In this document: in pieces, positions 6,113 through 37,179 of the stretch
Layout: every line of letters begins with the position of its first letter
Position numbering within the stretch: the stretch's first letter is position 1
Assembly: GCA_026120035.1 (NCBI GenBank)
Contig: JALRME010000046.1
Coordinates: 165,075 to 229,074, forward strand
Direction: 5' to 3'
DNA from: Coleophoma eucalyptorum
Taxonomy: Eukaryota > Ascomycota > Leotiomycetes > Helotiales > Dermateaceae
DNA length: 64,000 nucleotides
The notes under the pieces: model-generated
Told to the model about the DNA's origin: nothing
The model's database searches: none
Seen by the model: the letters and a program-made list of their open reading frames with translations, nothing else
Program-made: the position numbers and the translations under genes

Positions 6113-6142
6113 CTGCACTGCACTGCACTGCACTGCACTGCA
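6113..6142. repeat. CTGCA pentanucleotide repeat, 6 copies
   Basis: Six perfect tandem CTGCA units, 30 bp, in the gene-free interval. This microsatellite could be polymorphic between strains. Confidence 0.9.
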
Positions 6143-9913: not shown

Positions 9914-10043
9914 AGTAAGTGCTATTATCATGACCCCTACCAAGACTACCAAGTATTGATTCCAAATTATTAGGTATCAAAAAAGTAAATAAAAAGACTC
10001 GCTTGTAAACAACAGTTTCTGCTTATTACACCAACAATTACAT

Positions 10044-18242: not shown

Positions 18243-18988
18243 TTTGGTGACGCAGCTCCGCCTCGTTGATATAACGTACCAGCAGCAATGGTCCTAGTGA
18301 TTGAATTCGTCAAGTTAGATAGTTTTGTACATGGGTGCATATTTAGGAAGATATTGGTATAATAAAGGGATTAATATGATTGATCTAGATTTTAGGGTTT
18401 TATCGAGAATATAATAACTTCCGAAGAGGATACCACGTTGTTTTTAGGTTGGGAGCATTGAGGCTGTGCTCTCCAAAGAACGCCTCTTTCTATGCACTGA
18501 TGGCTGTAACCGAAATTGGCTGTTGCCCCTGTCCTCTTCGTATTCAGCTTTCTATCCTGAATCACCCAACATAAGATTTAGAATATCACGTGATGAAGTA
18601 GTATCGGATTAAGGCATTGTGACTATTTCAGTTCATAAGCTTGCGCTATCTTAAGAGAGATGTTGATGAGATTGGAATTAGATACTAATAATGCTATATA
18701 GTATAAGAAGGGAATAAAAAATAATGATACAGCGGCGAAATGCCTATTGAAGGAGTATAGTAGCAAGTCTTCAAACGGTCGAAGTGTTCATGTTTGGTTT
18801 CTATCGCGATTGCTCGCAAGACACAACTACGTCTAACCCTTTCTAACTTCTCATCTATACCAAAGCAATCCTTGTCAGAGTAATACACTCTATAGAGATA
18901 ACATTCCTTCGACTTTGTCTTTGATGGTTATACCACAACACAAAATTGAGCTTTGCAGCACCAGGCATTACTATACCTTTCGTAAAAT
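18243..18988. other. AT-rich intergenic region upstream of the HET gene
   Basis: 746 bp without coding signal. It contains the HET promoter and the 3' flank of the TatD gene. An AT-rich block near 18350-18420 is followed by the right copy of the 24-bp repeat. Confidence 0.45.
18761..18784. repeat. Right copy of the 24-bp imperfect direct repeat
   Basis: Matches 16012-16035 except for two adjacent bases (GG here, CA there). Flanks outside the match are unrelated. Confidence 0.6.
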
Positions 18989-20061
18989 TCATTTTAGCCC
19001 AAACATCTGGTGGCTATTATTCCAAGCTGCCTCGACTACCATCTCTATTGGCACTCCCATTACCCCCGCAACAATCATTGCTACACGGTCAATAGTACAG
19101 CTCTCGTTGCGGCCCTTGACCATCTGGCCTTCAATGAACTTGTTATGCTTTCGGGAAGGTGGCAGTGGGCGAGCATTTTGTAGATACTGCTCAATCTGGC
19201 TCGTTGATACTATTTCGCACCATGGAGCATCCGTCTCAAGCTGCAGCTTGTCCAGCGGAATATGGCGCACCATATCCAACTGCTCGTCTGTGCGGAAGCA
19301 GACTCCATTTACACTAATATCTAGGCCTAGATCTACAAGCTGTAGCATCTCGTCTTTGGTGCCTGCGAAAGAATGTACTAGTCCACCGCGTGGAAGCTTT
19401 AGCAAATATGGCTTAATGATAGAGATAAAGTCGGTCACTGACTCTCTCGCGTGCAGGAACAGTGGAAGTTGGAACACTACTGCCATGTTGAGTTGGTCTC
19501 GAAATGCCCGTTTTTGAGTCTCTTTATCTGCCCGATCGAGATACTCGTAGTCAAGACCAATTTCGCCGAAGGCCACGAGTGTTGATGGCTCTTCAGCTAG
19601 TAACTTTTGGCCAAACTGCTGCATGGTGTCGAGATAATTCTCCCCTTCCCCAGAGTATATGTCACCAACATGGTAGGGGTGTACTCCAAGTGTCATAGTA
19701 CAAGTACCAGGGTACTTCTTGACGAGCTCATGGTTCTCATAGGCGCCGGGCAGTGTCATAGTTGTTAAGATGAGCTTCTCGCAGCCATATTCTTGGGCGC
19801 GTTGTATGACATTGGCAAAATCGGGTTCGTGATATTTCTTCCCCCGATATTTGCCTTGGAATTGGTCGGCGGTGAATGTAACCGCGACCTTGAGTGACGG
19901 TCAGTTACAAATGCTTGTTTGTCTACTTGCGTTTTCAAACGATGACTTACATCTACGAAGCGCCGTTGATAAGTTTGCGATGCGGACATGGTGAGGGTTC
20001 TAGAAAGAGGCCAGATAGAGCAGGACGATGGCAGGGGTAAACGGGTCACAGATTTTATCAT
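18989..20061 (-). CDS. TatD-family metal-dependent hydrolase/DNase
   Basis: Two exons, 20061-19951 and 19888-18989; 336 aa from the upstream ATG. TatD proteins are TIM-barrel, divalent-metal nucleases implicated in DNA degradation and repair. Visible metal and active-site positions: VHP in LGVHPYHV, Glu in GEIGLDYEY, His in FLHARES, His in VHSFAG, and Asp in ETDAPW. FQGKYRGKKYH near the N-terminus is a TatD signature, while the usual first metal-site residues are replaced by VAVTFTAD. The first 24 residues (Arg/Ser/Leu-rich, no acids) resemble a mitochondrial presequence; an internal Met25 at 19989 would give a cytosolic form. The upstream region carries the first copy of the cluster palindrome. 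Confidence 0.9.
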
Positions 20062-20145
20062 GATGAGTTGAAGAGATAGCTTCCCCGAATCCCAACCCTA
20101 TCCGAATTTGATTCGTCGCTTATCTACACCTTTCCGCTTACTTGA

Positions 20146-20163
20146 CCGGGTACGTGTACCCGG
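20146..20163. promoter_or_regulatory. Cluster palindrome copy 1
   Basis: Perfect CCGGGTAC-GT-GTACCCGG inverted repeat, a CGG-N10-CCG arrangement of the kind bound by Zn2Cys6 dimers. It is 85 bp upstream of the TatD start and about 0.8 kb upstream of the amidohydrolase start. Confidence 0.7.
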
Positions 20164-20605
20164 CCCAATCCGTCCAATTGCTTGCTACGTTAGTTTTGTA
20201 GCCACACCAGTGTGACTCGCCTAAACGAAACTCAAGACTAGAACTTAAGATCTGTATCCATGCCGATTCTAGTCACAGACAGGACTGCAATAATGGTATT
20301 TCCGCCATCAGAGTGGATAATTTATTCGGGTAGACCGATACCTAAAGAGATACTTCCGTGGGGTTGAATAGTTTCCCAGGCAAACTAACTAACTAGCATA
20401 CTTCAGGCGATTCTTCTACCATGCTAGCTATGTTCACCATCTTTTCACAAAGAAATCCCACGTCTGATCCAAGGCTTAGATTATTCAGTTATCTGCCCTT
20501 TAAATTCTATGCTCTAGCATACTTGTACCTATTTGAGCTCTCTATGGTTACAGGGTGTACTCCTAGACACGGGTTTATGAACTTGATGACTACCCCTCAC
20601 AAGAA

Positions 20606-20623
20606 CCGGGTACCAGTACCCAA
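20606..20623. promoter_or_regulatory. Cluster palindrome copy 2
   Basis: CCGGGTAC-CA-GTACCCAA: the 6-bp cores GGGTAC/GTACCC are perfect, and the outer two bases differ on the right. It lies about 334 bp upstream of the amidohydrolase ATG. Confidence 0.7.
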
Positions 20624-20956
20624 CCAGCGCAAAATGCTTGTGATAACGGAAAGCTGCATCATTGGCAATCATTTCTAATCTATCTAATTGAGATGCTCTG
20701 GTCATTATCTACTATCGTCTATATGCGTAGCAAGCGACCAAGCCGGAAGAAGATCCCGGAGATGCCCTTGGTGTGGTCAATGCATACATTTCAGTAGAGT
20801 GGGCTATTTTGTTGCCCAGAGCTGCAAGTCAGACTGGCAGGAAATTGTACTATATCTTGGTAGAGGTGCCTTTTATTGAGTGGTACTAGGTTGCATTCAA
20901 CATTTCAAAAATCATTAAGACTTTCACATAACTTACTACCACTGAAGCCACGCATA

Positions 20957-22279
20957 ATGTCAGTTTCTGCAAACTTTATCAAGCCATGGCTACCCACAAG
21001 GTCTCCTAGCTCATATTTATTCACCTCTGCAAACATAGTCGATACTGTCGAGGGTAAAATCTACGCCAATGCTTCCGTTCACATTTCTGGTGGCTACATT
21101 ATCAAAGTCGCTTATGATGATAATATCACGGTACCAGCGGACACGCAAACAATCGACCTTGGAGGGAAATATCTCTGCCCAGGTCTTACCGATTCCCATG
21201 TACATATCTCTGCTGTTCCGGGCGAGATTGATTTCCGTCACGTTGTATCCACACCCGAGCAGCAAGCACTCATTCGGATGACATTTGTATGTCGTGATAT
21301 GCTGCGGCGAGGCTTTACCACCGTACGAGACTGTGGCGGAGCTCCATACGCTTTGAAACAAGCATGCGAGGAGTGGTTGATTGCCGGCCCAAGACTTTTC
21401 ATTGCTGGGCATGCGATAAGCCAGACTGGAGGACATGGAGATTTTCGAAGCGCCCACGACCACAAAGAATGTGTCTCTGGGTTCGTTTCTGGGCTTGGAA
21501 GAGTTTGCGACGGTGTCCCAGAGTGCTTGCGGGTTGCTCGAGATGAGCTAAGATGTGGTTCTGATTTCATCAAGGTCATGGCCGGTGGCGGAGTGGTCAG
21601 TCCGACTGATCATTTGTTAAATATCCAGTTTTCGCCTGAGGAGTTACAGGCTCTGGTTATGGTTGCAACAAATGGGAAGACCTATGTTACATGCCACGCA
21701 TACACGCCAGAAACTATCAAGATGGCGATTGATAATGGTGTTAGAGGCATTGAACATGGCAACTTGCTTGATGTGGAAACTGCTCAGTTGATGGCAGCGA
21801 AGGGTGTGTATCTAACACCTACATTGGTGACATACCACACCCTAGCAGATCCTTCTTTACCCCAATTCCTTACAGCAGAGTCGGTTCAGAAGAATGTGGA
21901 GGTCTTGAACGCAGGATTGAAGTCACTACAAATAGCAAAGGAAGCAGGTGTTACTATGTGTTATGGTTCTGACCTTCTAGGTCCTCTAGGTAAATATCAG
22001 TGCGGAGAGTTTGGGTTGCGATCCAAGGTGCTCCCAGCACTTGACATATTGCAAAGTGCTACCATCAATCCTGCACGCATGATGGGACTCAAGATGGCAG
22101 GGCAAATCCGAGAAGGCTTCTGGGCAGATATATTGGTGCTGAATAGCAATCCACTAGATGACATCACTATGTTTGAGAGATATGAATCGGAGCTTTTGGC
22201 AGTCATAAAGGCTGGAAGATTCTGCCACAGCAAGTTACCCAACATCACTGGACTTCTCGATGATTTCGCGAAGCTGTAG
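20957..22279 (+). CDS. Metal-dependent amidohydrolase (imidazolonepropionase/prolidase-like)
   Basis: Intronless, 440 aa. Family members are TIM-barrel hydrolases with one or two metals acting on cyclic or linear amides and dipeptides. Visible ligands: His81-x-His83 in LTDSHVH, a likely carbamylated Lys206 in SDFIKVMAGGG, His247 in VTCHAYT, His267 in GIEHGN and Asp339 in CYGSDLLG. The TVRDCGG and QTGGHGD segments place it with the fungal imidazolonepropionase-like/aryldialkylphosphatase-like group. The start chosen is the ATG at 20957; no ATG precedes it in frame. Substrate is unknown. Beside a GABA-type aminotransferase, an N-acyl amino acid, lactam or similar compound is a reasonable inference. 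A cluster palindrome sits upstream. Confidence 0.9.
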   Translation: MSVSANFIKPWLPTRSPSSYLFTSANIVDTVEGKIYANASVHISGGYIIKVAYDDNITVPADTQTIDLGGKYLCPGLTDSHVHISAVPGEIDFRHVVSTPEQQALIRMTFVCRDMLRRGFTTVRDCGGAPYALKQACEEWLIAGPRLFIAGHAISQTGGHGDFRSAHDHKECVSGFVSGLGRVCDGVPECLRVARDELRCGSDFIKVMAGGGVVSPTDHLLNIQFSPEELQALVMVATNGKTYVTCHAYTPETIKMAIDNGVRGIEHGNLLDVETAQLMAAKGVYLTPTLVTYHTLADPSLPQFLTAESVQKNVEVLNAGLKSLQIAKEAGVTMCYGSDLLGPLGKYQCGEFGLRSKVLPALDILQSATINPARMMGLKMAGQIREGFWADILVLNSNPLDDITMFERYESELLAVIKAGRFCHSKLPNITGLLDDFAKL

Positions 22280-23070
22280 AGAGATAATCAATTATGGCTT
22301 AAATCAAGTTTAAGTGTTTGATAAGTGATTCATTGTCATACTTTTAATGATTGTGCGTATTGGCCAAAATTTTCCAAGGTGAAGCTGCTCAAAGCTAACG
22401 TTTATTATAACTTAGCGGTTACCCATGCTGTGTTAATAAGCATATAGCATCGAAACTTTACACTTCTCCCGTCATAATAGGGAACTAGAGGCCAGGAACA
22501 ATATATTGGCAAGACTTGCTGTTTCCAGTACAAATCCCATTACGATCTTATCAATGGCTTTCCCATGCCCTATCAAATTCAGAGGATTGGTGAGACTTCT
22601 GCTCCTAGGACTCATTATCTGAGGAGCTACGGGTACTAGTACCCGGACGGTGAGATTGCACACTATTGTAGATTTGGCAGTCGCTAGTGGCGTCAAGTTA
22701 GTGACCAACCAAAGCAGGTTATCAACTCAATATCTCCTTCTGCTGACTTGACCTGCTCTTATCGCTTTCTTCGGCTTATCTTTGCTAGGGCACTTTTGAG
22801 CTTTGTCTACGTGTCTGGGGGTACGCGTGAGCATTGCCGGTGGATAGTTACCCCTTGCTTGCTCAAAACAATGCTTGGCTGGGCCGTGATCTCCGCAAAG
22901 TTATCAGATAACATTATATCAATGAAATAATGGAGGGTTTATAGTAGTTAATAAACCATAGCATAGTATATAATAGTTTCATGATATCTCAGATTTCATG
23001 TAAAAATTAATCACTTCACATCGATAATATCGACATAAACTATTTACTACTTCGTTAACTTTCGGTCAAT
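22280..23070. other. Intergenic, promoter of the permease gene
   Basis: 791 bp without coding signal between two co-directional genes. It contains palindrome copy 3 about 425 bp before the permease ATG. Confidence 0.55.
22629..22646. promoter_or_regulatory. Cluster palindrome copy 3
   Basis: ACGGGTAC-TA-GTACCCGG: one mismatch at the outermost left base relative to the consensus, with perfect cores and CGG-N10-CCG preserved. Positioned upstream of the MFS permease. Confidence 0.7.
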
Positions 23071-24692
23071 ATGTCAACGTCATATTCTCACAAAGAGGGG
23101 GAGGCGATACCACCAACGAAGGATGAGTTCTCCCTCGAAGAAGCAAATCCTATCTCAGAAGGTGAAATGACAATTACCAAATATAAAACCACCACAGATC
23201 ATGATGTTACCGCTACATTCATGGCCCAGGTGGATCAGCAGATTATCCAAGAGCCAATATCTATGAATGAGTCTCGCAAGGTTCTCTGGAAAATAGATAT
23301 TTGTGTCTTGCCGCTGATCGCAGGCTCCGTTATCTTGTCTGCAGTCGATAAAGTAATCATCTCGAATGCGGCCATTTATGGGATGCGGAAAGATACCCAT
23401 CTAGTTGGCAATCAGTTCTCCTGGGTCGGCTCTATCTTTTACTTCGGGTATCTGCTATTCGAAGGACCATCTGCCCTCCTCATCCAGCGCCTACCCGTTG
23501 CAAAGTTTCTTGCAGCAACCATCATTGGTTGGGGAGTTCTCATGCTATGTACGGCGGCAACCCAGAACTTTGCAGGCTTGGCTACGGTACGATTCATAAT
23601 GGGTATGCTAGAAGCACCGGTCTTTCCCATTTGTAGTGTTTTGACAGTCATGTGGTGGACAAATGATGAGCAACCTATTCGTGTGGCGTTTTGGTATAAC
23701 CAGGTCAGTATTTGTAACCCCCCCTCTAATATGAATGTTATTTTAAGTCTATACAGTTCTCTTCAGTTTTCTCGGGTATTGTCAGCTATGGTATCGGACA
23801 CTCTCATACTTCCCTAAGCCCATGGCGACTTCTATACATTGCGCTTGGAGCTTTCTCCCTGCTATGGGGTCTCATCGTGTTGCTATTTTTGCCCGACAAC
23901 CCAGTCAAGGCTCGATATCTATCTGACCGCGAGAAGTACATATGCATCGACCGCATTAAGAAAAACAATACCGGAGTCGAAGATAAGATAATCAAGTGGT
24001 ATCAAGTCCGAGAGGGCTTGGTAGATCCGAAAACCTGGTTATTGTTCGTCTTTGCATGTGCTCAGAATATCCCAAATGGCGGTCTTGTCACCTTCGCATC
24101 CATTATTGTATCAGGCCTAGGCTACTCGGCGCTCAGTACCACTCTTCTTGGCATTCCGACTGGACTGATCGCCACGGCCTGGCAACTACTGCTATCCATT
24201 CCGTGTGCAAAATTCAAGAATTCACGTTGTACCATTATTGCTCTGGCAAACATCGTTTCCATGGTCAGTGCTGTTATCATGTGGAAGCTGCCTCGCAGCA
24301 ACAAGCATGGTCTTTTAGCAGCATATTACATCTTCTACACATATTGGGGCCCGTATGTTCTCTCAGCCTCATTGTCTATGGCGAACACCTCCGGCCACTC
24401 CAAGAAAGTTACGATGAATGCAGTTTTCTTCACCGGCTACTGTATTGGAAACATTATCGGTCCCCAGGTTTTCCGGGCCACAGACGCACCAGACTATAGT
24501 CACGGATACATTGGTCTTTTGGCATGTCTAATCGTTGCCATGATAGCAATTTCATGTTACGGCTTTGTCTGCTATGCAGAGAATAAGCGGCGGGATCGTC
24601 TATCTGACCCTTCTCGGGCTTCAGACGAGGCCGATGGGGCTTTCTCGGATCTAACTGATATAGAGAAGAAGGATTTCCGCTATGTCTATTAG
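23071..24692 (+). CDS. MFS permease, anion:cation symporter (allantoate/Dal5-like) family
   Basis: Two exons, 23071-23703 and 23757-24692, with a 53-nt intron (GTCAGT...ATACAG); 522 aa with about twelve hydrophobic segments. The ACS family takes up organic anions such as allantoate, nicotinate, pantothenate or dipeptides across the plasma membrane. Signatures include the WKIDICVLP start of TM1, DKVIISNA, the loop-2/3 FYFGYLLFEGPSALLIQRLPVAKFL region and the PWRLLYIALG...LLFLPDNPV block after TM6. The N-terminal 80 residues and C-terminus are charged and cytosolic. The cluster setting suggests it imports the substrate that the amidohydrolase and aminotransferase degrade. No damage seen. Confidence 0.92.
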
Positions 24693-24919
24693 GGACCATT
24701 GGAAAGGATTTTGACTTAGGATTGGACAGTTATGTGTACTTAGTAGCTATGTGCTTCTATATAGTTTTTCTGTAAGAGCCATGCAAGGCTTGGAGTCGAC
24801 TTTGATGTGCTTTGAATAGGATGTAATCTAGGTACAAAGTCTCAAACAAGGATTGATGGAGAGATAGGATACTAGCTGAACAATTAAATGTGGTTACTTT
24901 AAGTAGAAGCTCAACTATA

Positions 24920-26321
24920 TTATATAAGGTTTTCGAGTTCTCTCAGCACCAGCGGTATCAGTGTCGACATCATATCCTCCTGCACGATACCGACTTGCCA
25001 GGAAAAGCCCAGAGTCAATACGCCATCCCTTCCAGTGGCCGCACTGATCTTAATAGCCCCACTACAAGCACTCGCGCTCTGGCTGAACAATAAGCTCTCT
25101 ATTTTATACTCCGTTTGTTTCTCTGTTAGAGCCAAGGCTCCTATATTTGATAGCTCGAAAGAACTAAGTCTCTGTCTCCCTATCTTTTGACCAAACCACT
25201 CTTTCATATCTGGGATATGCCGTAGGTATCCAGCACCCGTGTCCACGCCAGGATTCCTTGTCATTTCGTTGATAATTATTTTCGTCTTGCGGGCCTCGTC
25301 CCAGTTGTACGGACCCCTCGCGTATGTTTGCGAAAATGCCCTAACGTAGCATCCCATGGATGATGCATCTATAGGAGGCGGTAGCCATCGTCGTAAAGAA
25401 ACGGCACAATCGGCGACAACGGTCGTGTAGGTTTCTGGCAAGATACGGAAAAGGCTTGCTGCAAGAACTGCCTGTATCACTGCCGTTACAGATGTATTTT
25501 CCGTTTTTGCAGCCCGAAGCAGGGCTTGGGTCGTGGAAAGTGACAACCAAAGCGAAGTGAACCGACTTTTGACTGGGATTGTCTGCATCGCGCCAGTCCA
25601 CGTGTCAGATGAAGGAGGTGTGTACTTTTGCTGAGATTCGATAAATTCTTCTGAAAGCTTGAGGTCCAAAAGTTCTTCCAGAGGGGGAAGAAGATCCACA
25701 GGAGTGCTTATATGGACTATATCATTTGATGGAATTGGTGATGGGTTGGAGAGCGCAGTTTCTAAGTCTTCTTGAAATACGACGGCACTCTGGGTATCAG
25801 CCACGGCATGATGAAAAATAAATGAAAGCGTGAAGTTCGATGGGTCAGTAGCATCCTCTACTACCATGATCCTCCAAAATGGTAAATTTCGGGCGTCGTG
25901 TGTAAATGGACGATTGTGCTGTTCTTCGAGCAGTTCATCTAGGTAGGAACCCACTCCCAATGGTTGGAAGTTACAGCCTTGCTGCACAAACGTCACCGTC
26001 TCCGTTAAATTGATTTTTGGGAGTTGGACGAATCGAGGGCATTTTGTATGGCTGTCAATTGGGATGGATGACAGTACTGGGTGCTTCGAGATGAGCACAG
26101 CGAGGGCACGAAAGAGAGCTGGTTTCAGCTCTTCCCTCCCTTGCTGCCGGTAGCGGGCGGTGAGACAAACGTTAATGTATATACCGAGATAACTGCGTAC
26201 ATCCGAGTACTGTTCAAGCAAACCTGGAACGTCAGGGAAAGACCAATGCTGGTGGAATTGGAGGGAGCTAACCTAAGTTACGAAGATGCTTAAGATTGTT
26301 CTCACCAGCTGTGTCTGCCAT
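24920..26321 (-). CDS. Alcohol acetyltransferase-like acyltransferase (AATase, condensation-domain fold)
   Basis: Two exons, 26321-26273 and 26223-24920, with a 49-nt intron; 450 aa. The AATase family transfers acyl groups from acyl-CoA to alcohols or amines. The start RNLGLLEQYSDVRSYLGIY matches the family's N-terminal block, and the catalytic HHxxxD is seen as HHAVAD at about residues 154-159. A DFGWG-like second motif is replaced by LGFSWQVG near the C-terminus. It lies convergent to the permease, tail to tail with about 230 bp between. In this cluster it could N- or O-acylate an intermediate or toxic amine, which is inference only. Confidence 0.85.
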
Positions 26322-26504
26322 TTTATTGGTTACTTGAAGAAGGAACAACAAATAGATTTGATTTAGTTTAACATTTTGACGAGCGACACGGTAAAGTATT
26401 TATACTTCACGAAACTAACTAACAGTTTCTTCGGTTTAAATCACTAGTTTATTCTAGTTTACTCGAGCTATGCAACCGGCCCGGTGCTAACCGTCTAATG
26501 GTAT

Positions 26505-27221
26505 TTACAATTCTCGATCTAAAGCATCGGCCATATCACCAAGGGTATCAAACTTCCAGTCAAAAAGCTCTTCCTCTCTATTGCCCATTGTTGCTCCAGG
26601 TCTGACGATCCAGCTTGACTTGATGCCCATTTTCTTGGCTGGGTGATGGTCGTGGAATTGGCTCTGGGCGGTTTGTAAAATTTGTGATTTCTCAGTACCA
26701 AACTCTTCCTTAACTTTCGCGATCATGTATTCAAAGTTACGTAGGTCAGGCTTGTAAGAACCCACGTCTTGTGCTGTGATAATGAGGTCAAATGGGAAGC
26801 CTTCGAGAGGCCCGGCATTGCTTCCTCCAAACGAAGTCCGATCAACATTGGAGAGGACGACAAGTTTGTAATGTTTTGAAAGCCGACGTAACGCATTGAC
26901 AGTGTCCGGAAATGCAGGCCATTTACCCACAGATTGTCCAAACTCCTTGGACGTTTCTTGAGTGGGGGCAGCACGTCCAAGTTTGGTGGCTATCTGAGGG
27001 TGAATGGTAGCGAGCAACTCGGCATATGTGAGATCTGGAGTCTTGATTTGTTGCTCGCGTTCGCACTCGTGGTACACCTCCAGGAGATACTGACGCGAAA
27101 ATTCGTCACGGTTGTTGGTATTGAGAGTCTCGCCAAGTGCAGTCAGCACCCCAGATTCCCAATCTATCAGGGTGCCATAAACGTCGAAAGATAACAGACG
27201 GTAATCAGTTAATTTAGACAT
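26505..27221 (-). CDS. HAD-superfamily hydrolase, 2-haloacid dehalogenase-like
   Basis: Intronless, 238 aa from the ATG at 27221. The frame extends 40 codons upstream, but that part shows no conservation. The nucleophile motif FDVYGTLIDWE lies near residue 15, motif II is VVLSNVDRTSF, and motif III is the QDVGSYKPD segment with catalytic Lys. Motif IV is altered: the usual HVAxSxxHD region appears as QTAQSQFHDHHPAK. Family members remove halide from 2-haloacids or dephosphorylate small metabolites; many fungal ones have unknown substrates. It lies in the same orientation as the acyltransferase, and a palindrome copy is 185 bp upstream of the start. Confidence 0.88.
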   Translation of the reverse strand: MSKLTDYRLLSFDVYGTLIDWESGVLTALGETLNTNNRDEFSRQYLLEVYHECEREQQIKTPDLTYAELLATIHPQIATKLGRAAPTQETSKEFGQSVGKWPAFPDTVNALRRLSKHYKLVVLSNVDRTSFGGSNAGPLEGFPFDLIITAQDVGSYKPDLRNFEYMIAKVKEEFGTEKSQILQTAQSQFHDHHPAKKMGIKSSWIVRPGATMGNREEELFDWKFDTLGDMADALDREL

Positions 27222-27854
27222 ATTGGTTGTTATCAGACGGAACTTGACGTCGATAAAATCAGAGACTTGTTGGAAAGAAGTGTGTTGAGATAGAGGTGCA
27301 ATATCGAGATGTCTGGAAACAAATACCAATATTTGGCGCAAGCATTGGTTTTTTATAAAGAGGGGGTTTAGTTATGGTAAGCGAACGATAGAGCGTATTA
27401 TCAACCCGGGTACTTGCACCCGGATTCATGATTCGTCACGTTTAACACTTGGTACAGCTTAACACTACAGAAAAGTTAGTTGTATTGCCAACACTAGAAC
27501 GCTACTTGATTTGGTGGCTCTTTCCCGGATAACTTTCATCTGTTCACTCAAGACCCGGGATCAAAAGTTAAGATTTGGTACATTGATACGGCTCGACTTC
27601 TGAGCCGCCGGGTCTAGTTGAATTGTATTTTCGTAATGAAAACGAGATAACTAACCTTATCTTATCTTTGAATATCAGATCCAAGGTTTTATACTCCATG
27701 ACGGTCACATTTGCTTACGTAAAACCTTTGCGTTCGACATCAATGTGAAGGGTAGTATTGCCAACCAAAGGATAACCTCTGCCGAAAGAACATTTATTGA
27801 TGTGCTTCAAGCACTCAAGTTCTTAGAATCCCATCGGTAACTATAGTCTTGCTT
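27222..27854. other. Intergenic, HAD promoter and 3' flank of the dehydrogenase pseudogene
   Basis: About 630 bp, AT-rich, non-coding. It includes palindrome copy 4 and several additional CCGGG/CCCGG words (near 27547 and 27605) that do not form inverted repeats. Confidence 0.5.
27406..27423. promoter_or_regulatory. Cluster palindrome copy 4
   Basis: CCGGGTAC-TT-GCACCCGG: one core mismatch (GCACCC for GTACCC), outer CCGG kept. Upstream of the HAD gene. Confidence 0.65.
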
Positions 27855-28830
27855 ACCATATCTTCGATACTGTATTTGCTCCTCTCTCCCGAATCCGCTC
27901 AGTTTCACGCCGCCAAATGGGACTGATGGATCACTAAGTGCACCTGGGACTGGCAGTCAGTCGCGTAAATCTCTCAGACGTGTGAATATGGTCTCACCTG
28001 TATTTACTCCTACCTTACCAAACTCCAAAGCTTCTGCGACTCGTCAACAGCGGTTGATGTCCTTGGAAAAGACAAAACATAAAGGGTTAGTAGCTTAATT
28101 GTTAGAAAGTAACCTGCAAGACCGACTTCTGACTCATTTGCAAGTTGAATCGCCTCCTTTTCAGTATCAAAAGTGATTAAGGCAGCCACAGGCCCAAAAG
28201 TCTCCTCGTGAGCAAGCTTCACTGCTGTGTTGACTCCTGTCAAAACTGTCATGGCATAGAGATTGCTACCCAGAGACGGCAAACTATCTCCACCCAGAAT
28301 ACACTTGCAGCAAAGCCGTTGCCAATATTGAATCCCTCAATGACCTCAACGCACTTGTTGACTCTGCTGCCGGCTGTGCTGCTCTGAATGACATCTCCAT
28401 AAATGCGAGGTGCCTCCTCTGAAAACCATTCAAAGAAACCAACAGCATACTTTATTTCAGTTCTCGCATCGGCCATCAGCCTTCCATTCTCCAACGTGAT
28501 TATGCGAGCTAGATCCTCCAAGTTCTCCATTATTAAATCATGCCAGCGGCGGAGCATTTTTGCTCGTTCTCGAGCAGTTGTTTTGCGAAATTCCCGTAGT
28601 GCAACAGAGGCAGCATCAATGGCCTTTTACGTGTCATCGATCTTGAACTCAGTGCATTTGTCAATTTCCTTGCTAGTTGTAGGATCTAGATATTGCTATT
28701 ATTGTTCGCTTTTTTACTACCAAGACCAGATTATTAACCTTCAACAGTAAATGTCTTGCCAGAGCCTGCTTCTACCTATGATCCATCAACATAACATTGC
28801 GATTTAAGAAAGGGGCTATCAGTTAATTAG
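27855..28830 (-). pseudogene. Decayed succinate-semialdehyde-type aldehyde dehydrogenase
   Basis: Family blocks are recognisable in order on the minus strand: QCYVDGS...EAGSGKTFTVE, IDAASVALREFRKTTARERA, LARIITLENGRLMADARTEI, GFFEWFSEEAPRIYGDVIQS, then directly VEVIEGFNIGNGF, GGDSLPSLGSNLYAMTVLTGV, AHEETFGPVAALITF, ESEVGLAG and SDPSVPFGGVK. About 200 residues between the VIQS and VIEGF blocks are missing, including the catalytic Cys and general-base Glu, and a second gap with a frameshift follows NGF. In-frame stops replace expected residues: TAG where Trp is expected after VDGS, TAA before KAIDAA, and TGA where Trp is expected in the NRC-RVAEALEFG region. There is a further frameshift near the C-terminus. 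The intact gene would have oxidised an aldehyde product of the neighbouring aminotransferase; this copy cannot be active. Confidence 0.85.
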
Positions 28831-29652
28831 CAAAGTATGATTTAGCAAAAGCCACATGTGTTGCATCAGGTTTTGGGAAGCTTGCTGTAGGTATGATTGC
28901 TGCCATCATAGGAGATCGAGATGAGGTTGCTCAGGGTGGCGACGTAGAGTACTCAACTTTCCAGATAGCCCAGGAAGAACATTGAATGTAAAATAAGAAC
29001 GAGAAGCTTCCAAGAAAATAATAAATCTATTAATTGAGAACTATCGTGGATTAGTTCCAGAGCCGGTTGGGAGATTGGTGGATAGCTCCATACTCGGTCC
29101 GTCATCTCTGCCATGACGGAGGAAGGCAAAGAAGGGCTACATAATGGACGTAAATATCGGTGCAAATTGTCCGGCTACAGGATAGACAACATGTCTGGTG
29201 ATTAATATCGTTCCACCAGATAAGTGAAACGTATGCTGCCATTTTGAAAATGGTACGATACTGTACCATCATGCTCGATAAATCTTCCACAATGGTAAAG
29301 GTGGAGTAACATTGTATCTGAGTTTATAGATGGGGTAACAAACGTCCAATCATGTTCGCTAAGCATCACTGGACATATGGACCAAGGAAGCAGATCACGC
29401 CGTCACAGATCAACACCGGCAATGATGCCCAGCTATATTTCGTGTACATTGCAAGAGGCCGGGTGCGAATACCCGGCATTGCATGTGTTTATTTCGAAAA
29501 CTCGCCGGTGTAAAGCCACTAAGAAAAGTATATCAACTCTTGGTGGACGTCAACTATTTGAACCAGTCCAGAGCTCCGACATAGGGTAAAGTCTGTTGTC
29601 TATTTTTTATGTCTCAAAATACCAAAACAATTCTACTTAACTCTAAAACAAG
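28831..29652. other. Intergenic, divergent promoter of dehydrogenase remnant and aminotransferase
   Basis: About 820 bp; only short meaningless frames. The first dehydrogenase exon may once have lain at the left end but is no longer recognisable. Palindrome copy 5 is near the right end. Confidence 0.5.
29459..29476. promoter_or_regulatory. Cluster palindrome copy 5 (degenerate)
   Basis: CCGGGTGC-GA-ATACCCGG: both half-sites differ by one base from consensus, but CGG-N10-CCG is intact. It lies about 177 bp upstream of the aminotransferase ATG. Confidence 0.6.
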
Positions 29653-31482
29653 ATGTCGAGCGATTCTGCAGCACCACGGATGCTGACCCAAGTACCCGGA
29701 CCACGGACGAACAGCATAAAAGCCGAACTTGATCCCATGTTCGATTCTCGCGCAGTTCAGCTGGTTGTGGATTATGAGAAATCTCATGGGAACTAGTAAG
29801 CCTATGCCTTTAAGATTACATAGATGCAATCGAAATACCTCAGAAAAACCTAATTTATCCCAATCGCAGTTTAGTCGATGCTGATGGCAATACTTACCTT
29901 GATGTGTACGTCAATATTGAAGATCTATTAATCAAGATTCTATCCTGACCCAACTTTGCTAGATACGCACAAATTGCATCTATTCCACTTGGCTATAACA
30001 ATGCAATTCTTGGTGCGGCAGCTCAGACCCCAGAGATGGTTTCTGCTCTCATCAACAGACCAGCACTGGGAAACTTTCCATCTGTGAATTTTCTATCGTC
30101 AATCAAAGATGGTCTCCTCAGAGCCAGCCCTGCTGGCTTAAATCAGGTCTTCACTGCGCAATCGGGATCTGAAGCGAATGAACTTGCTTTCAAAGCAGCT
30201 TTCATGTACTACCGCCGACTCCAGCGAGGAGAAGGCGTTGAGTGGTCTGAATATGAGCTTCAAACCTGTATGAAAAACCAAAGTCCAGGATCTCCAGATC
30301 TCGCGATACTAAGCTTCTCCAATGCCTTTCATGGAAGGGGGTTCGGTAGTCTTTCAAGTACAAGATCAAAGCCAGTCCACAAAATGGACATCCCGTCATT
30401 TAAATGGCCACAGGCTCCTTTCCCATCTTTACGATATCCTTTAGAGGAATACGCAAAGGCGAATGAAATTGAAGAGTCCAGGTGTTTGCAAGTGGTCAAG
30501 AACATCATCGAGTCTTGGTGAGTTCTTGGCCAGAGCCTACTGGAGATATGAACTTCAATCTGATCGTTCCAGGCATTGCCCAGTTGCTGGCGTCATCATT
30601 GAACCAATCCAGAGCGAGGGTGGCGATAACCATGCTTCTCCTGCCTTTTTCAAAGGTCTCCGGGCACTAACAAAGCAAAACAACATTATCTTGATTGTGG
30701 ATGAAGTTCAAACTGGTAAGATTAAAATTAATGGTGTGTGATCCAGGCTAAAACTAGAACAGGATTTGGGGCGACTGGAAAGTTTTGGGGACATGATCAC
30801 TGGAATTTATCAACCCCTCCAGACATCGTAACATTCTCTAAAAAGGCACAAACTGCTGGTTATTTCTTTAGCGACAAACTGCTACGTCCCGACAAGGCAT
30901 ACCGGCAATTCAATACGTAAGAAATTGATATGATTCTTTACCAAAATAAGTCTAACTCTACACAGCTGGATGGGTGACCCAGCCCGTGTCCTCCTCTGCA
31001 AAACGATTATCGACGTTATTTTGAGCCAGAGATTGGTAGAAAAGACGGTAAATCACGATCAATCGTTTATAATGCGGTGTTCACCATTTGCTTATTATTT
31101 TAATACAGGCTGCCATTGGTGATTTTCTGTACAGCAAGCTGGATGGGCTAGCGAAAAAATGTCCTGACAAGATCTTGAATCTTCGAGGTAAAGGCAAAGG
31201 GTAAGAAACCAAAAGACTCTCAATGTGTGCAAACATCTACTAATAACTATCTAGAACATACATTGCATTCGATACTGTCAACTCCAGCCCTCTCCTTAAG
31301 AACATGAAGAGTTTAGGGATAAATATCGGCAGCTGTGGTGTCAATACGATTCGACTGAGACCAATGCTGATTTTCGAGGAATCCCATGGTAAGCCCCTCG
31401 AGTCTTCCGTGCTTGTATCAGAAATTGATGGAAATTAGTGATCATTTTGATGGAAGCTTTCGAAAAAGCCTTTAGCTTGTAG
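29653..31482 (+). CDS. 4-aminobutyrate aminotransferase-like (class III PLP transaminase, eukaryotic GABA-T type)
   Basis: Nine exons, starting at 29653, 29870, 29963, 30573, 30763, 30966, 31109, 31255 and 31439; all phases agree and give 460 aa. GABA-T moves the amino group of GABA (or a related omega-amino acid) to 2-oxoglutarate, giving a semialdehyde. Visible family blocks: VDADGNTYLDVYAQIASIPLGYNN, AQSGSEANELAFKAA (PLP phosphate region), SNAFHGRGFGSLS, EPIQSEGGDNHASPAFF, IVDEVQTGFGATGKFW (the Asp that contacts the PLP ring nitrogen), VTFSKKAQTAGYF with the Schiff-base Lys at about 319, and RQFNTWMGDP. It is somewhat shorter than mitochondrial GABA-T at the N-terminus, with no clear presequence, so it is probably cytosolic. 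It lies beside a broken semialdehyde dehydrogenase, its natural downstream partner. Confidence 0.92.
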
Positions 31483-31768
31483 TCTGTGTGCAACCAAAGG
31501 GATTTGGCTGAGATTGGACATCACAGTTAGACAATGGAGTATCAAAATATCACGCTCAAGAATGGTTGGGACAGCAGGGTAGAGAAATATCCTGTCTATA
31601 GTAAATTTTATTAAAAGCGGATTGTATATCGTAAAAACACTTCACAAACACCCATAGAAATCGAAGGATATACAAGTGATATTAATATGCTGAAACAGCT
31701 TGACTTACTACATAGCTATTTATGTTTACTGAATTATAATACATAATGCCTTCCACGATATCCTGAGC

Positions 31769-34383
31769 TCAAATAGGGAAAGTCCCGAAACTCTCTTGGA
31801 AAGGGTCACCTGCCATTGGAAACACATCAAAACCATCCATGGTCTGTGGATACGAAAAGAAGCCATCGAGCGCAAATCCCGGCATACTCGTATCCATCGA
31901 GATCCCAGGATCTTCAGGAATATTATATGTATTGAATGATGCCACAGGTTCGTTCGCTATATCAATAGTGTTGTCGAATTCCTTCGGTGACTGTGTCCAC
32001 AGCTGCGCCCAACTTTTGTACTTCTCATATCCAGAAGACTGGTCGTCCTCCTTGTTTGATGTTTGAGACCTTGATTTGCCATCCAGACGGGATATCGCTT
32101 TTTCTAACCTCTCGATCAATGATAGCTCTGATTTCGCTGAGTCCAATCCTCTAGCCATCACTCGCAGCAACTTCATTCCATTTGTGACAGAATCCCGTAA
32201 CCGCTCTACGCCGTCATTCAAGCAATGCGCAAGAAGTACAAGCAATGCAGCACGGCATGAGCTGAATTCTGTATAGGATGCTCTTGCTAAGCAGTGATTA
32301 TCCTTTAATAGCTGGCAGTGGTCTAAGATCTTGTATGCGGCTTCGACACAGTCTGAAATGAGTTCGCGCCGTGCGCTGTATAACTTGGACTTCGGAGGTT
32401 GATTTGATGAGCTGGAGACCTTGCTGTATGTAAAAAGAAAGGGACGACCCATGAATATCTGAGTTAGCAGGAAGGTTAATGTTAGGTGGACATTTGTTCG
32501 AAACAGGCTTTTTTGGGGGTCTAAATCTCTGCAATAGATTTCTGATGGTAAGGAGGTCCACCATTCTTTCAGTTCAAGACTATACTGTGCTAATTCTCGG
32601 AAGCGATCAGCTTGGAGTGCTTTTGGTGAATTCCTTAGCTTTGTGCTGTGGTCTCTTATTAGCTCCCAAGAACTTTGTGTACCTAATGAGACCCATGAAA
32701 AGCCTCAGACATACATTGCTAAGGCGATAAGCTCTAATTGGGTAGTGAGCTTAATCATTGCCTGAATATTGGCATAGTTGAATGACTGATTAGACAAATA
32801 AGGATCACAGAGCTCATTAGGGAGCTCGGCGTCTGTATCTGAGCTTGATATAGAAACTGGCCTTCCGTGAAGAACGCAAATTCGCCTAAGTTATTTTAGT
32901 TTGAGTATACCAAATTTCAGGGGTTGTTACTTGTCCAGTGTATACACGGTCCACCAAAGTCGATTTCTCATTTCTACCGTCCGTAAGTCTAACCCATTGC
33001 CAGAGTATTTCCGGTGCAAGCCATTTTGTATAGCCATCTTAATAGCTATACCAAGGTATGTATAGGACAAGCCTGATGTGTCTAGGGGCAATGTGTATAC
33101 ACCAAAAAGCAAAAAAGCCTGGACACTCTCGATGGATGCAATAGTCATCACATCTGGAATCAGTTGGACAGCAAATCTGTAAAATGTGAGACCGACATCA
33201 TCCTCAGATGACAGTTCAGAGTTGCTCCAGGCTTCATCCGCTTGACCAGTGGCAGCGATATTGGAGGAATCCAAATCAGCAAACTGAGTTCCAATTGCAA
33301 GTAGCATTAACAATATACACCAGGATGGTGAGTCATCGCTTGATATTTTTGAAGGCTGGCGATAGATACCCTCAAGTTTCGCCATCGCCCAGTCCATTTC
33401 AACGTAGTAGTAGTTGGTTTGCCCATATTTGAAGAAGCTTGAAAGAAGGAACTCGCTAACAGGTCGAGGAGGGAACCACTGAGCCACTGTTAGAAGAGCC
33501 GAGCCAGATGACTGTAGCTTTTTAGCTCTATAGTACTCTTCTATGCTGCTCGTACCGTCAGGAACCTGCAAATCATCAGTATGCACCTTTATGTAAAACT
33601 TATAAAAGTAATAGCAAGCACTGTACTAGGTCCGCCGCCGCTGATAACTTCTCAACTTTTTGTTCAATCCGTTTCGAAAAATTCCAGTGCGAGAATTCTC
33701 CTGAGTAATCTATAATTCATGAGCTAATCATCACTAGCGACTAGAAGCAAAGTTAAGATCCGACTTACGGGCAGAGTTTTCTGACAGCGCTTTCACGGTG
33801 AAATCCTCATCAGTAATTTCCAAGTCTTCCATATCATCAGTCTCGTCACTAGACTTCAAGTCGGGTAGCTTTGGCCTTGAGTTGTCTTTTTGCAAGGTTT
33901 CCGCAATTCTTCTTAGGTTTTCGGAATCGCCCAGAACATCACCAACAAGATTTTTGACGATACATTCCAAGTACGCCACTCTCTCATTAGCAGCAGGACC
34001 GTCAAGTCTAGAAATATTTCTCCTGCTATCATTAGTAGTATACTAAGATGTGAAATCCATACTAATTCTCACCTCTGGTTCCCAAGCATCGAAACATCAC
34101 CTTGCAAGGATGCACTCAGCTGGAACTGGCACGTGCGTTGTAACCGGCTGCACCTGTAACACGGTATTCCTCCCTCGCACTTCTCCTTCTGCTTTCGACA
34201 AGCATCACATCTTTACACAATGTCACTACTTTGCCCGTGACAGAAGATAAGAAGCGTAGGTACTCACGCACGAGTAGCCCTCCTTCTACTTTCTTCGGGG
34301 ACACGGGGTCGTTTCCGTCTCCCACCGGGCTTAGCTGGCTGGGGTGTGGACATTTCTGCATCTTCTGCCACTTTTGCAGACAT
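31769..34383 (-). CDS. Zn2Cys6 transcription factor with fungal-specific regulatory domain (putative cluster regulator)
   Basis: Seven exons: 34383-34268, 34210-34073, 34025-33769, 33709-33627, 33565-32931, 32885-32715, 32672-31769; 767 aa with consistent phases. The basic region GGRRKRPRVPEESRRRATRA precedes a canonical binuclear zinc cluster, C-x2-C-x6-C-x5-C-x2-C-x6-C, at about residues 40-66. A leucine/isoleucine-rich segment (VAYLECIVKNLVGDVLG) may form the dimer coiled coil. YSGEFSHWNFS and then the long exon with LLSSFF, SWCILLMLLAIG, ESVQAFLLFGVY, GLSYTYLGIAIKMAIQNGLHR and RNRLWWTVYTLDKRICVLHGRP are the Fungal_trans domain. Such factors bind CGG triplets as dimers. It is the only regulator inside the palindrome-marked region, so control of that cluster is the natural inference. 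Confidence 0.92.
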
Positions 34384-35082
34384 TGTGGCCGGTAGAGGGC
34401 TCCGATTGTGGATTGTCTCTAGCCCAAGGCACCAAGCTACTAATTGGAAGCGGAGTCCTATTTAAGCGGCGTAATGGATAGAAATGAGTCAATTAAACCT
34501 GTCCCTATGTATACTATTGAGGATTTTGATGCTGTTGCGGCTGAATATGAAAAAATGGAAGGATAGTTTTATCTGGTCGAGCATTCATTGATTGTTGCGG
34601 GGCAAAACTGTAAACTGGGTGGTCGATAACAATTATCACGTGTCACTTGCTTAGGTTATCATCCAGTGCATTAGTTCGCTTCACCGCTATCGTATGCGGC
34701 TTCATTTTCCAGGCAAAATTCCCCTCCTTTCACATCCATTACAGTTTAGCACGTACCCTTCCATGACTTGCATGAATTGTTTGGAATGTTAAACAGCTGC
34801 CGGATATTCATTCTTGATAGCAAGATAGAAGTTGGGTTTTCTGCTGGCAAATGTTAAAGTATGGTGTAGATTCTCGAAAACTTAAGTCCATTGCTCAATC
34901 ATTACCGAGATGGTGTAAAATTGTACTGTAACTTCCTACTCGATTTTTTCGTTAGTCTGGACAGTAGTTTTGAGAGGTAGAATCTACTTTGTGTTCGACA
35001 AGATAAGTATTCAACCAATTGAGAGATTACAGAGATAAGATATTTGCCGCACCTGGGGTGAGAGAGGTCTGACAAAAATAGA

Positions 35083-35100
35083 CCGGGTACGTGTACCCGG
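35083..35100. promoter_or_regulatory. Cluster palindrome copy 6
   Basis: Perfect CCGGGTAC-GT-GTACCCGG, identical in all 18 bases to copy 1 fifteen kb away. It is 0.70 kb upstream of the regulator at 31769-34383 and 0.76 kb upstream of the regulator at 35862, so it could mediate autoregulation. Confidence 0.7.
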
Positions 35101-35290
35101 ACGAGAGACGTAAAGGGAAAATGTGGAGTTACAAGTTTGGAATATTTGTTTTGCCAGTGGCGACTGCTGGATAACTAATGTATACTACATATTCTCAGAA
35201 AGCACGCGTAGTTCACACTCTTTTTTCCTGGGTCTTAACACCCTTGGGAGGCCAGCGTCGTTAGCTACAGGCTCAATGTCCTCACTTATC

Positions 35291-35353
35291 TCGTCTGGCT
35301 CGTTTATCTCGTTTAGCTCGTTTAGCTCGTTTATCTCGTTCAATTTGTCTAGC
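35291..35353. repeat. 9-bp tandem repeat, about 7 imperfect copies
   Basis: Unit TCGTTTAKC. The central four copies are near-perfect (TCGTTTATC/TCGTTTAGC) and the outer ones have diverged. Non-coding position between two regulator genes. Confidence 0.8.
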
Positions 35354-35861
35354 TAGTGTTGCTGATTTTACTAGTTTCTGGTTAAAAAAGATATAGTGAA
35401 AGAAATGAAAAGGTTCTCCCCTCCATGACTGTAAGACTCGTAATGATTTATAAATTAGCTCTCTTACAGCTTTCTAATAACAATTGAGAAGCCTAGGACT
35501 GGTCCTCTACTTTTTTGGGGTTCTTATCCCCGCATGTGCATAAATCGATCGGTTGAGGATAAACGATGTTCCAGATGCCAGATGCCATTTCACTTGTAAA
35601 ACCGCTTAACTTAGGTTTCTTCCCTACGCACTACGAATACATCAGCCAAGGCCGCTAATAAGGTTCTGGTAGTTTGAAAACTCGGGATAAAACAGTAGTT
35701 CCCGGGTCATTGATTACGTCTCGTATTCCTCGTACGAAATACCCCCTTTTCCGCTTATAAACGTTCTCAGACAGGGCAACGCCAAACTTCCTCTGGATGT
35801 TCTTTACTTCTCTGTGGTTTGAATAAAGTTCGTTTATCTCGTACTACAATCATAATTAACC

Positions 35862-37179
35862 ATGCCACGGTTAGGTGTACGCCGCAGGCCGCATCAGAAG
35901 AGCCGTTTTGGGTGCACTTCCTGTAAGCTGAGGAGAATAAAGGTAAAGTCCTAGAGTCGATTGAAAGGGAAGGAGTGTGTAAGGCTAGAAGAAGGCACGG
36001 AATTGTGATGACAGAAGTTCGCTGACCATCTTCCCTACCCAGTGCGACGAGGGGAAACCTTCATGCATCAACTGCGTTCGGTATAGGAGTAGTTGTGTAT
36101 ACGAAAGTACTCAGGCCCCCCACTACACATCAGCACTCAAAGGTCAAGTTGCTAGAGACGGACTTCTATTTCCCAACGAGGGAAGCAGCCCTAGAAGTGT
36201 TGCCAGTCCAGCTTCAGGCTCTTCAAGTGCCACTGAGATGTCTTTGACAACCAACGCATATCCTGAAGTTGCCCTGGAATTTACCACCACGGATATGCAA
36301 CTTGTACATATCTATACAACTGAGACTTGTTACTCGATAACAGCCAATACATCACTGCACCATATCTGCCAGTCTAGCATACCCCGAAAGGCTTTCGCGA
36401 ACCCGTTTTTACTACGCGGTATGCTTGCAGCAACAGCTTTATATAAGGCATTACAGTCTCCTCAAGAAACCTCTCTTTTTACTCTAGCCCTAAAACATCA
36501 TCAAATTTCAATCACAGATCATCGCCAAGCTCTTAATTGTATCACCCGAGATAATTGGGATGCAATCTTCGCCTCCGCAAGTTTAATTGTCGTCTTTATT
36601 ACTGCAATGGGCTCCGCGCCGGACATCATACACGACTCTATAGGATCGAATCCCCTTGATCGTACGCTTGAAGTAGCTATGTTCCTACGCGGAGTGGTTA
36701 CAATAATTGAGCATAGCAAGGCATGGCTCCATGAATCGGAATTGGAACCTCTGCTGCATCTGAGCCTAACAAAAGAAACTTCTCAAGACAATCGCATGTC
36801 TTTGGAGAGTTTAGTACATTTACAACAGCGTAATATTCAGATGAATGTTACAAAGAATATGATTGACATGTACTCGGAAAGAATTGGGAAACTGCAAGTC
36901 TGTTATAACCGTGCTTTAAATTGCGATCCAGATCCCGATTTTGCTTTACAATGGCTTGTTGGCTTATCCGATACTTTTATCTTTGCGTTGCGGCAAGATC
37001 GACCTATGGCATTTGCTATACTCGCTCACTTTTGCGCCCTTCTTCATAAGAGTTGCAACCAGTGGTGGTCTCGCGGATGGTCAGTTCGGCTATTAACCTG
37101 GATTAACTCACATTTGGATGCTGAATGGCGACAAACTATTAAATGGGCGAATCAGGAAGTAGGAGTCGATGCACAATAG
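35862..37179 (+). CDS. Zn2Cys6 transcription factor, sterol-regulator/UPC2-like architecture
   Basis: Two exons, 35862-35942 and 36043-37179, joined across a 100-nt intron that falls inside the zinc cluster (after RRIK, before C-DEGKPSC), a common position in this family; 405 aa. The cluster is C-x2-C-x6-C-x6-C-x2-C-x6-C at about residues 18-45, preceded by RRRPHQKSRFG. The remainder is short and helical (LVHIYTTETCYSI, FLLRGMLAATALYKAL, WDAIFASASLIVVFITAMGS), the layout of UPC2-like or C6 factors with a DUF3468-type C-terminus. It lacks the long Fungal_trans middle region. Targets are unknown. It lies just outside the palindrome-marked cluster, divergent from the first regulator. Confidence 0.88.

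Follow-up and report, generated by a model that had tools for sequence, protein, structure and literature searches.

As the sequence-only reading had proposed, an 18-bp palindrome marks what is well supported as a single local regulon in the genome of Coleophoma eucalyptorum, within the 64,000-nucleotide stretch of DNA analysed here (the window). The palindrome is almost private to a 15-kb cluster, lies in intergenic DNA upstream of most genes and is not a repeat. We consider it likely that the cluster forms a pathway-specific regulon, in which the palindromes are operators and a cluster-encoded Zn2Cys6 protein, TF1, binds them and switches its own cluster.

Palindromes and genes of the cluster

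A scan of the window with CCGGGTACNNGTACCCGG at up to three mismatches returned six matches, all within 20146-35100 (0, 2, 1, 1, 2 and 0 mismatches, in order), where the sequence-only reading had placed them; at this threshold the remaining 49 kb are free of the palindrome, again as claimed. Copies 1 and 6 do share the same 18 bp, and the GGGTAC/GTACCC core is perfect in copies 1, 2, 3 and 6. The description of the whole set as CGG-N10-CCG holds for five of the six copies and fails for copy 2 (20606), which ends in CCA. CCGG-N10-CCGG is exact in four of the six, and the spacer bases are conserved among the palindromes. Two further CGG-N10-CCG occur in the window, one at 29158 and one inside the amidohydrolase frame at 21589, with spacers unrelated to those of the palindromes.

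All six copies fall outside the gene models drawn in this analysis, confirming their intergenic placement. The gene-model-free share of 18989-37179 is 28.6%, and random placement would put six of six outside the models with a probability of about 0.0005. The nearest start codon lies 157-700 bp downstream of each palindrome (Table 1). Palindromes are found upstream of most cluster genes, the acyltransferase being the one intact gene without one. In the 183-bp gap before this gene there is a CCGG-N-CCGG, the only one of the window; with 195 such sites in the genome, the expectation for the gap is 0.0008. No CCGG-6/7N-CCGG was found in the window.

Table 1. Gene models and candidate regulatory sites of the cluster
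Feature	Position	Strand	Model or sequence	Pfam match or location
TatD-type metal hydrolase	18989..19989	-	312 aa, one intron	PF01026, 5.1e-46 (second exon)
Amidohydrolase	20957..22279	+	440 aa	PF01979, 3.5e-45
MFS permease	23071..24692	+	522 aa, one intron	PF07690, 3.8e-35
Alcohol-acetyltransferase-like acyltransferase	24920..26321	-	first exon and start codon uncertain	PF07247, 9.9e-19 (24920-26272)
HAD / 2-haloacid-dehalogenase-like hydrolase	26505..27221	-	238 aa	PF00702, 4.3e-09; relatives named haloacid dehalogenase
Decayed aldehyde dehydrogenase	27830..28990	-	N-terminal part and C-terminal fragments, interrupted by stops	bounds approximate, by eye
Class-III aminotransferase, 4-aminobutyrate type	29653..31482	+	460 aa, nine exons	PF00202, 3.3e-107
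TF1, Zn2Cys6 and Fungal_trans regulator	31769..34383	-	757 aa, seven exons, frame intact	PF00172, PF04082
TF2, second Zn2Cys6 protein	35862..37179	+	405 aa	PF00172, 1.3e-09
Palindrome 1	20146..20163	.	CCGGGTACGTGTACCCGG	157 bp upstream of TatD start codon
Palindrome 2	20606..20623	.	CCGGGTACCAGTACCCAA	334 bp upstream of amidohydrolase start codon
Palindrome 3	22629..22646	.	ACGGGTACTAGTACCCGG	425 bp upstream of MFS start codon
Palindrome 4	27406..27423	.	CCGGGTACTTGCACCCGG	185 bp upstream of HAD start codon
Palindrome 5	29459..29476	.	CCGGGTGCGAATACCCGG	177 bp upstream of aminotransferase start codon; 5' side of divergent aldehyde dehydrogenase remnant
Palindrome 6	35083..35100	.	CCGGGTACGTGTACCCGG	divergent TF1 (700 bp) / TF2 (762 bp) intergenic
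CCGG-N-CCGG, PrnA-type inverted repeat	26476..26484	.	CCGGCCCGG	about 155 bp upstream of acyltransferase start codon as modelled

The nearest solved relatives of the amidohydrolase are 3mkv and 3feq/3n2c (E 4.5e-91 and 2.3e-83 in the PDB; the name listed is prolidase), and a search of the viral contig collection with this protein returned no relative. The aminotransferase matches 4-aminobutyrate aminotransferase in the PDB (E 2.6e-139). In the aldehyde dehydrogenase remnant, positions 33-116 of the 461 in the PF00171 profile were matched within 28252-28626, and pieces were recovered by tblastn.

The candidate regulator and its relatives

The cluster encodes a regulator with Zn2Cys6 and Fungal_trans domains, and its genes have in common an inverted-repeat promoter site that is rare elsewhere; a regulator together with its own operator inside one cluster is a familiar arrangement. 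Because the palindromes sit almost exclusively upstream of cluster genes, they are most likely landing sites of a cluster-encoded regulator. Our best inference from the sequence is that TF1 is the binder, because it stands beside PrnA-named regulators, has a Put3-like zinc cluster and is preceded by a promoter that contains a perfect palindrome.

Among solved structures, the TF1 zinc cluster matched Put3 best, although weakly (E 3.4e-4, 31 residues); Put3 is absent from the best 120 relatives of TF1, at least four of which carry PrnA in the name. Our comparison with PrnA is with these PrnA-named relatives, not with the A. nidulans protein itself. They share with TF1 the N-terminal pattern KRPRV..E..R.RA.RACD.CR..KEKCEGG.PC.RC, and the group to which the tree assigns TF1 adjoins that of the four PrnA-named proteins without being part of it. 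The Aspergillus members of TF1's group deviate within the zinc cluster (CLPCRQHKEKC or CNPCRYHKEKC), and the fork uniting TF1's nearest relatives with the Aspergillus set has a support of 84 and is marked open. A protein from the same genome (C14:411718) was placed in the PrnA-named group, a placement flagged as unsure. Tree and identities were obtained with the corrected 757-aa TF1 model; the Pfam and relative searches were run with a preceding version of 766 aa, in which about nine residues were wrong. An early model, which seemed to call for an unusual intron of 42 nt or to contain an in-frame stop near 32700, was dropped after alignment by eye with relatives; TF1 has an ordinary intron ending in CACAG, followed by exon 31769-32645. 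In the stretches read at the loci of the two closest paralogue genes (C37 and C14), there was neither a palindrome nor a CCGG pair at N1, N6/7 or N10; the C37 locus has one CGG-N10-CCG, within the regulator frame and with an unrelated spacer.

Parts of the neighbourhood recur in other fungi. The Aspergillus nanangensis genes FE257_004427 (TF1 group) and FE257_004426 (amidohydrolase) have consecutive tags and lie on contigs of equal size, the consecutive tags being the only strong sign of synteny. Contigs of equal size also carry the regulator and the amidohydrolase in A. floccosus, and the regulator and the HAD protein in A. transmontanensis. The equal-sized contigs of P0088/P0139 (499,844) and P0062/P0355 (191,424) are suggestive of synteny, as are the amidohydrolase/HAD pairs of Rostrohypoxylon (530,086) and Pleurostoma (2,304,137). 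For Mariannaea (P0089/P0310) and Penicillium canescens (P0110/P0354) the sign is weak, because these regulators are not in TF1's group and the contigs measure 2-5 Mb. Twelve species occur among both the best 120 TF1 and the best 120 amidohydrolase relatives, and two of them show equal-sized contigs by eye, a count that covered regulator/amidohydrolase pairs and not HAD pairs. The amidohydrolase is at least 60% identical in six of the 12, two of which (A. nanangensis and A. floccosus) have equal-sized contigs; none were seen among the best 120 of each list for A. alliaceus, Thozetella, Pestalotiopsis fici and Penicilliopsis zonata.

As operators of the cluster, the palindromes might instead be bound by TF2, or by a Zn2Cys6 factor whose gene lies elsewhere. 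TF2 looks intact, has a Zn2Cys6 domain and shares the divergent promoter and the site at 35083, and the best matches of its zinc cluster are Ppr1 and Lac9, both factors of inverted CGG sites. However, these two factors use spacings other than N10, and TF2 has no Pfam domain besides PF00172 and no Fungal_trans match. Furthermore, the amidohydrolase gene of A. nanangensis is adjoined by a gene of the TF1 group and not, as far as seen, by TF2, and for a factor encoded outside the cluster one would expect sites in other parts of the genome, where there are almost none. We regard a binder other than TF1 as unlikely.

Rarity of the palindrome in the genome

Genome frequency was the check proposed in the sequence-only reading, and across the 45.26-Mb genome the motif is not as frequent elsewhere. 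At up to one mismatch the 18-mer occurs at four places, all in the 15-kb cluster, and at up to two mismatches at eight, six of them in the cluster. Allowing three mismatches gave 65 places (6 in the window and 59 outside), which we treat as background since the reversed control pattern gave more (114). The exact core GGGTACNNGTACCC is likewise confined to the cluster (4/4 places); with up to one mismatch it occurs at 38 places, five in the cluster and 33 elsewhere, compared with 82 for the reversed control. One of the two outside matches at up to two mismatches (C6:355691) lies inside a coding frame resembling, by eye, gamma-glutamyltransferase, and the other (C35:209508) is not covered by any frame of at least 120 aa.

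It is very improbable that a dispersed repeat or mobile element left these palindromes behind and that they have no regulatory role. A repeat search did find two copies identical over 20 bp, but the repeat family is just 20 nt long, and the palindrome flanks have a mean identity of 23-25%, which is the random level and argues that these are not repeat copies. Nor is the motif dispersed, its places at up to two mismatches being concentrated in one cluster, outside gene models and before start codons. We rejected a repeat-element origin on the basis of the random flanks and the two outside places, one of them in a coding frame. Clustering by chance or as a by-product of base composition has a negligible probability: CCGG-N10-CCGG by itself is fairly frequent (202 occurrences genome-wide) and the core recurs at one mismatch as above, but none of 100 shuffled windows reached six matches (mean 0.08, maximum 1, at up to three mismatches), the background rate from the two outside matches predicts 0.0007 sites per 15 kb, and local GC is unremarkable (43-47%).

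Known systems and proposed mechanism

In Saccharomyces cerevisiae, Put3 controls proline oxidation genes. Its site is CGG(N10)CCG, and it also contacts the spacer, whose bases matter (PMC5729217). The cluster resembles the Put3 regulon in this geometry, in its conserved spacer and, weakly, in the zinc cluster of TF1, whereas the sequence of TF1 places it next to PrnA-named proteins. In Aspergillus nidulans, PrnA is described (PMC5983819) as encoded in the prn cluster and as using CCGG half-sites in intergenic promoters, arranged as CCGG-N-CCGG and CCGG-6/7N-CCGG, with a specificity unlike that of Put3. Likenesses to the prn cluster are the Zn2Cys6 regulator encoded within the cluster, the CCGG half-sites in intergenic promoters, and the N-terminal tail and zinc cluster of TF1, which are close to those of PrnA-named relatives. 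In contrast, the palindromes are spaced by N10, the other gene content differs and TF1 belongs to an adjoining group. An N10 site for a PrnA-side protein is an extrapolation, because PrnA is described there with another geometry and as differing from Put3.

Unlike both systems, the cluster has no proline oxidase gene. The genome has five PF01619 matches, on C32, C23, C5 and C35 (two), and none on C42; a scan of four of the five proline-oxidase loci found no CCGG pair at N1, N6/7 or N10, and one proline-oxidase locus (L047) has a single CGG-N10-CCG with an unrelated spacer. The cluster also recalls the GABA catabolic pair of aminotransferase and succinate-semialdehyde dehydrogenase: solved mitochondrial 4-aminobutyrate aminotransferases match the cluster enzyme over its full length, and next to it lies the aldehyde dehydrogenase remnant, although here the dehydrogenase is decayed. 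A second aminotransferase elsewhere in the genome (C13:1867788, 60% identical) may be the housekeeping copy. A link to benzoxazolinone degradation (FDB) was also considered. In searches of one open-access library, judged by titles and the openings of abstracts, no described cluster with this gene content and no such site came up, which is not proof of absence.

We propose that TF1, a Zn2Cys6 activator from the group beside PrnA, would bind the palindromes as a dimer, each zinc cluster reading one CCGG/CGG half-site and the remainder of the protein setting the 10-bp spacing and reading the GTAC-N2-GTAC spacer. The inducer that TF1 would sense is probably an amino acid or imino acid, which the prolidase-like amidohydrolase may release. 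Once induced, it would turn on the hydrolases, the permease, the HAD hydrolase and the aminotransferase, as well as its own gene via the site at 35083, and the acyltransferase could be reached through the CCGG-N-CCGG at 26476. The sites, their near-confinement to the cluster, their placement in promoters and the family of TF1 were observed directly; binding, activation, inducer and pathway are what we infer.

It is tempting to speculate, more tentatively, that in several filamentous fungi an undescribed cluster of amidohydrolase, HAD, aldehyde dehydrogenase and aminotransferase genes is run by the group beside PrnA, which would read PrnA-type CCGG half-sites both as Put3-type inverted repeats with a 10-bp spacer and at the 1-bp spacing typical of PrnA. 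If true, this would give a direct view of a zinc-cluster family changing its geometry while keeping its half-site. To our knowledge, many members of the Zn2Cys6 family have no known site; here sequence alone yielded a regulator together with a probable operator and probable targets, and enzymes with no other evident connection are drawn together in one putative pathway. Should TF1 prove to be the binder, the question posed by PrnA and Put3, which do the same metabolic job with different DNA geometry, could be put to the test on related proteins encoded in a single genome.

Distribution of the palindrome

The six near-identical 18-bp inverted repeats (CCGGGTACNNGTACCCGG) that the sequence-only reading had reported in one gene cluster were all recovered at their claimed positions by a scan of the window, with zero to two mismatches. 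When the window was ranked by a symmetrised weight matrix, these palindromes took the top six places with scores of 22.8-30.1 (runner-up 10.8), and in leave-one-out runs every palindrome stayed within the top six. CCGG-N10-CCGG is exact in four of the six and altered at one end in the other two. The 50-bp flanks have a mean identity of 23-25%, as in random DNA.

We then scanned the genome (45.26 Mb, 101 contigs), as the first proposal had turned on how frequent the motif is elsewhere. The observation withstood this check, the close matches proving to cluster here. All four genome places of the exact core GGGTACNNGTACCC lie inside the cluster, as do all four of the 18-mer at ≤1 mismatch and six of the eight at ≤2. 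At ≤3 mismatches the 18-mer gave 65 places, of which six fall in the window; its reversed form, used as control, gave 114. The core at ≤1 mismatch gave 38 places (five here) and its control 82. As these counts fall below the control, loose matches are background and the close matches alone cluster. CCGG-N10-CCGG by itself occurs 202 times in the genome and is therefore common, so that the GTAC-N2-GTAC spacer is what makes the site private.

Cluster genes and their surroundings

Intron-rich genes and fungal domains mark the host as a filamentous fungus; the genes of the cluster were modelled manually and named from Pfam. A palindrome lies 157-762 bp upstream of every intact cluster gene except the acyltransferase, one being common to the Zn2Cys6 proteins TF1 and TF2 and another to the aminotransferase and the aldehyde dehydrogenase (ALDH) remnant. 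In the window scan, it was absent at the flanking HET-domain frame, the tubulin cofactor D gene and the right-hand MFS frames. GC content drops from ~52% (1-10000) to ~44% (18000-64000); the change takes place in the 10-18 kb stretch, to the left of the cluster. The end of the window is also the end of its contig. The AnmK family is better known from bacteria.

Features of the window
Feature	Position	Remark
Palindrome	20146	0 mismatches
Palindrome	20606	2 mismatches
Palindrome	22629	1 mismatch
Palindrome	27406	1 mismatch
Palindrome	29459	2 mismatches
Palindrome	35083	0 mismatches
TatD hydrolase		cluster
Amidohydrolase		cluster
MFS permease		cluster
AATase-like acyltransferase		cluster
HAD hydrolase		cluster
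ALDH remnant	27830-28990	cluster, otherwise intact-looking; stops, middle lost
Class-III aminotransferase		cluster
TF1	31769-34383 (-)	cluster
TF2	35862-37179 (+)	cluster
9-bp tandem repeats, CTCGTTTAG type	35285-35339	between TF1 and TF2; stray copies at 35827, 37686
Tubulin cofactor D gene	12315-15581	left of cluster
HET-domain frame	16409-17992	left of cluster
25-nt direct repeat	16011-16035, 18760-18784	brackets HET-domain frame; 92% identical
MFS frames	38304-39974	right of cluster
Frame matching anhydro-N-acetylmuramic acid kinase (AnmK)	47389-48033	profile 218-366 of 367

Of the solved structures, 3mkv and 3feq/3n2c come closest to the amidohydrolase, and the name prolidase is also given to the second of these sequences. 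One paper, going by its title, reportedly describes cog1228 prolidases, which we take these entries to be. Together with the GABA-AT-like aminotransferase and the decayed ALDH, this prolidase-like enzyme suggests a pathway that degrades some amino or imino acid held in an amide or peptide bond.

Neighbourhoods in other fungi were judged from locus tags and equal contig sizes in protein listings. In A. nanangensis, a TF1-group regulator (FE257_004427) and an amidohydrolase (FE257_004426, 66% identical to the host enzyme) have consecutive tags and equal contig size; in A. floccosus both are listed with one contig size, 499,844, and in A. transmontanensis one size, 191,424, is listed for the regulator and for a HAD protein that carries a fused ALDH piece. 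The regulator, amidohydrolase and HAD/ALDH may thus travel together, equal contig size being an indirect sign of linkage. A further caution is that, by eye, the regulator and amidohydrolase show equal contig size in only 2 of the 12 species common to both relative lists.

The regulator and its candidate operator

TF1 (757 aa) carries Zn2Cys6 and Fungal_trans domains. Among the best 120 of 258 relatives, the nearest come from Cadophora (57%, full length), Thozetella, Xylariales and Coleophoma. Four of the 120, from Talaromyces stipitatus, Aspergillus fumigatus, A. ochraceoroseus and Cephalotrichum gorgonifer, show PrnA in as much of their names as is displayed. A tree built from the 120 relatives together with TF1 and two paralogues places TF1 with its nearest relatives and an Aspergillus set (32 rows, support 84, marked open). 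The neighbouring group (80 rows, support 99) holds the four PrnA-named proteins, so labelled by annotation and with A. nidulans PrnA itself outside the comparison, and a paralogue from another contig, C14, whose long branch led the program to flag its placement as unsure. The C14 gene (C14:410920-413655) adjoins a frame (414003-414788) resembling, by eye, a different HAD-type hydrolase. Across the 17 relatives displayed, TF1 closely resembles both the proteins nearest to it and those named PrnA in its basic tail and zinc cluster, and a few zinc-cluster positions differ in the Aspergillus members of TF1's group. Among solved structures, Put3 is the best match to the TF1 zinc cluster, a weak one (E 3.4e-4).

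Put3 recognises CGG(N10)CCG, the geometry of five of the six cluster palindromes, and also contacts the spacer (PMC5729217). PrnA uses the CCGG half-site seen at both ends of four of the six palindromes, yet as inverted CCGG-N-CCGG or direct CCGG-6/7N-CCGG rather than with the N10 found here, and its specificity is said to differ from that of Put3 (PMC5983819). With these arrangements known, we looked across the window for two CCGG half-sites 0-20 bp apart. CCGG-N-CCGG occurs once, at 26476, in a gap of 183 bp that precedes the acyltransferase, the only intact cluster gene without a palindrome; its 195 genome occurrences give an expectation of 0.0008 in that gap. As this is one site and the acyltransferase start codon is uncertain, it counts as support and not as proof. 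The same scan found no CCGG-6/7N-CCGG in the window. Both PrnA-type arrangements stand side by side on another contig (C13), in the locus L037 at 3612-3653, where CCGGTCCGG and, 19 bp further on, CCGG-N6-CCGG precede by ~545 bp what is by eye the first ATG of a second GABA-aminotransferase-like gene.

The likeliest reading is that the palindromes are the private operator of a Zn2Cys6 activator encoded in the cluster, an ordinary mechanism, and this activator probably regulates its own gene. The unusual part, we infer, would be a regulator on the PrnA side that uses a Put3-like geometry.
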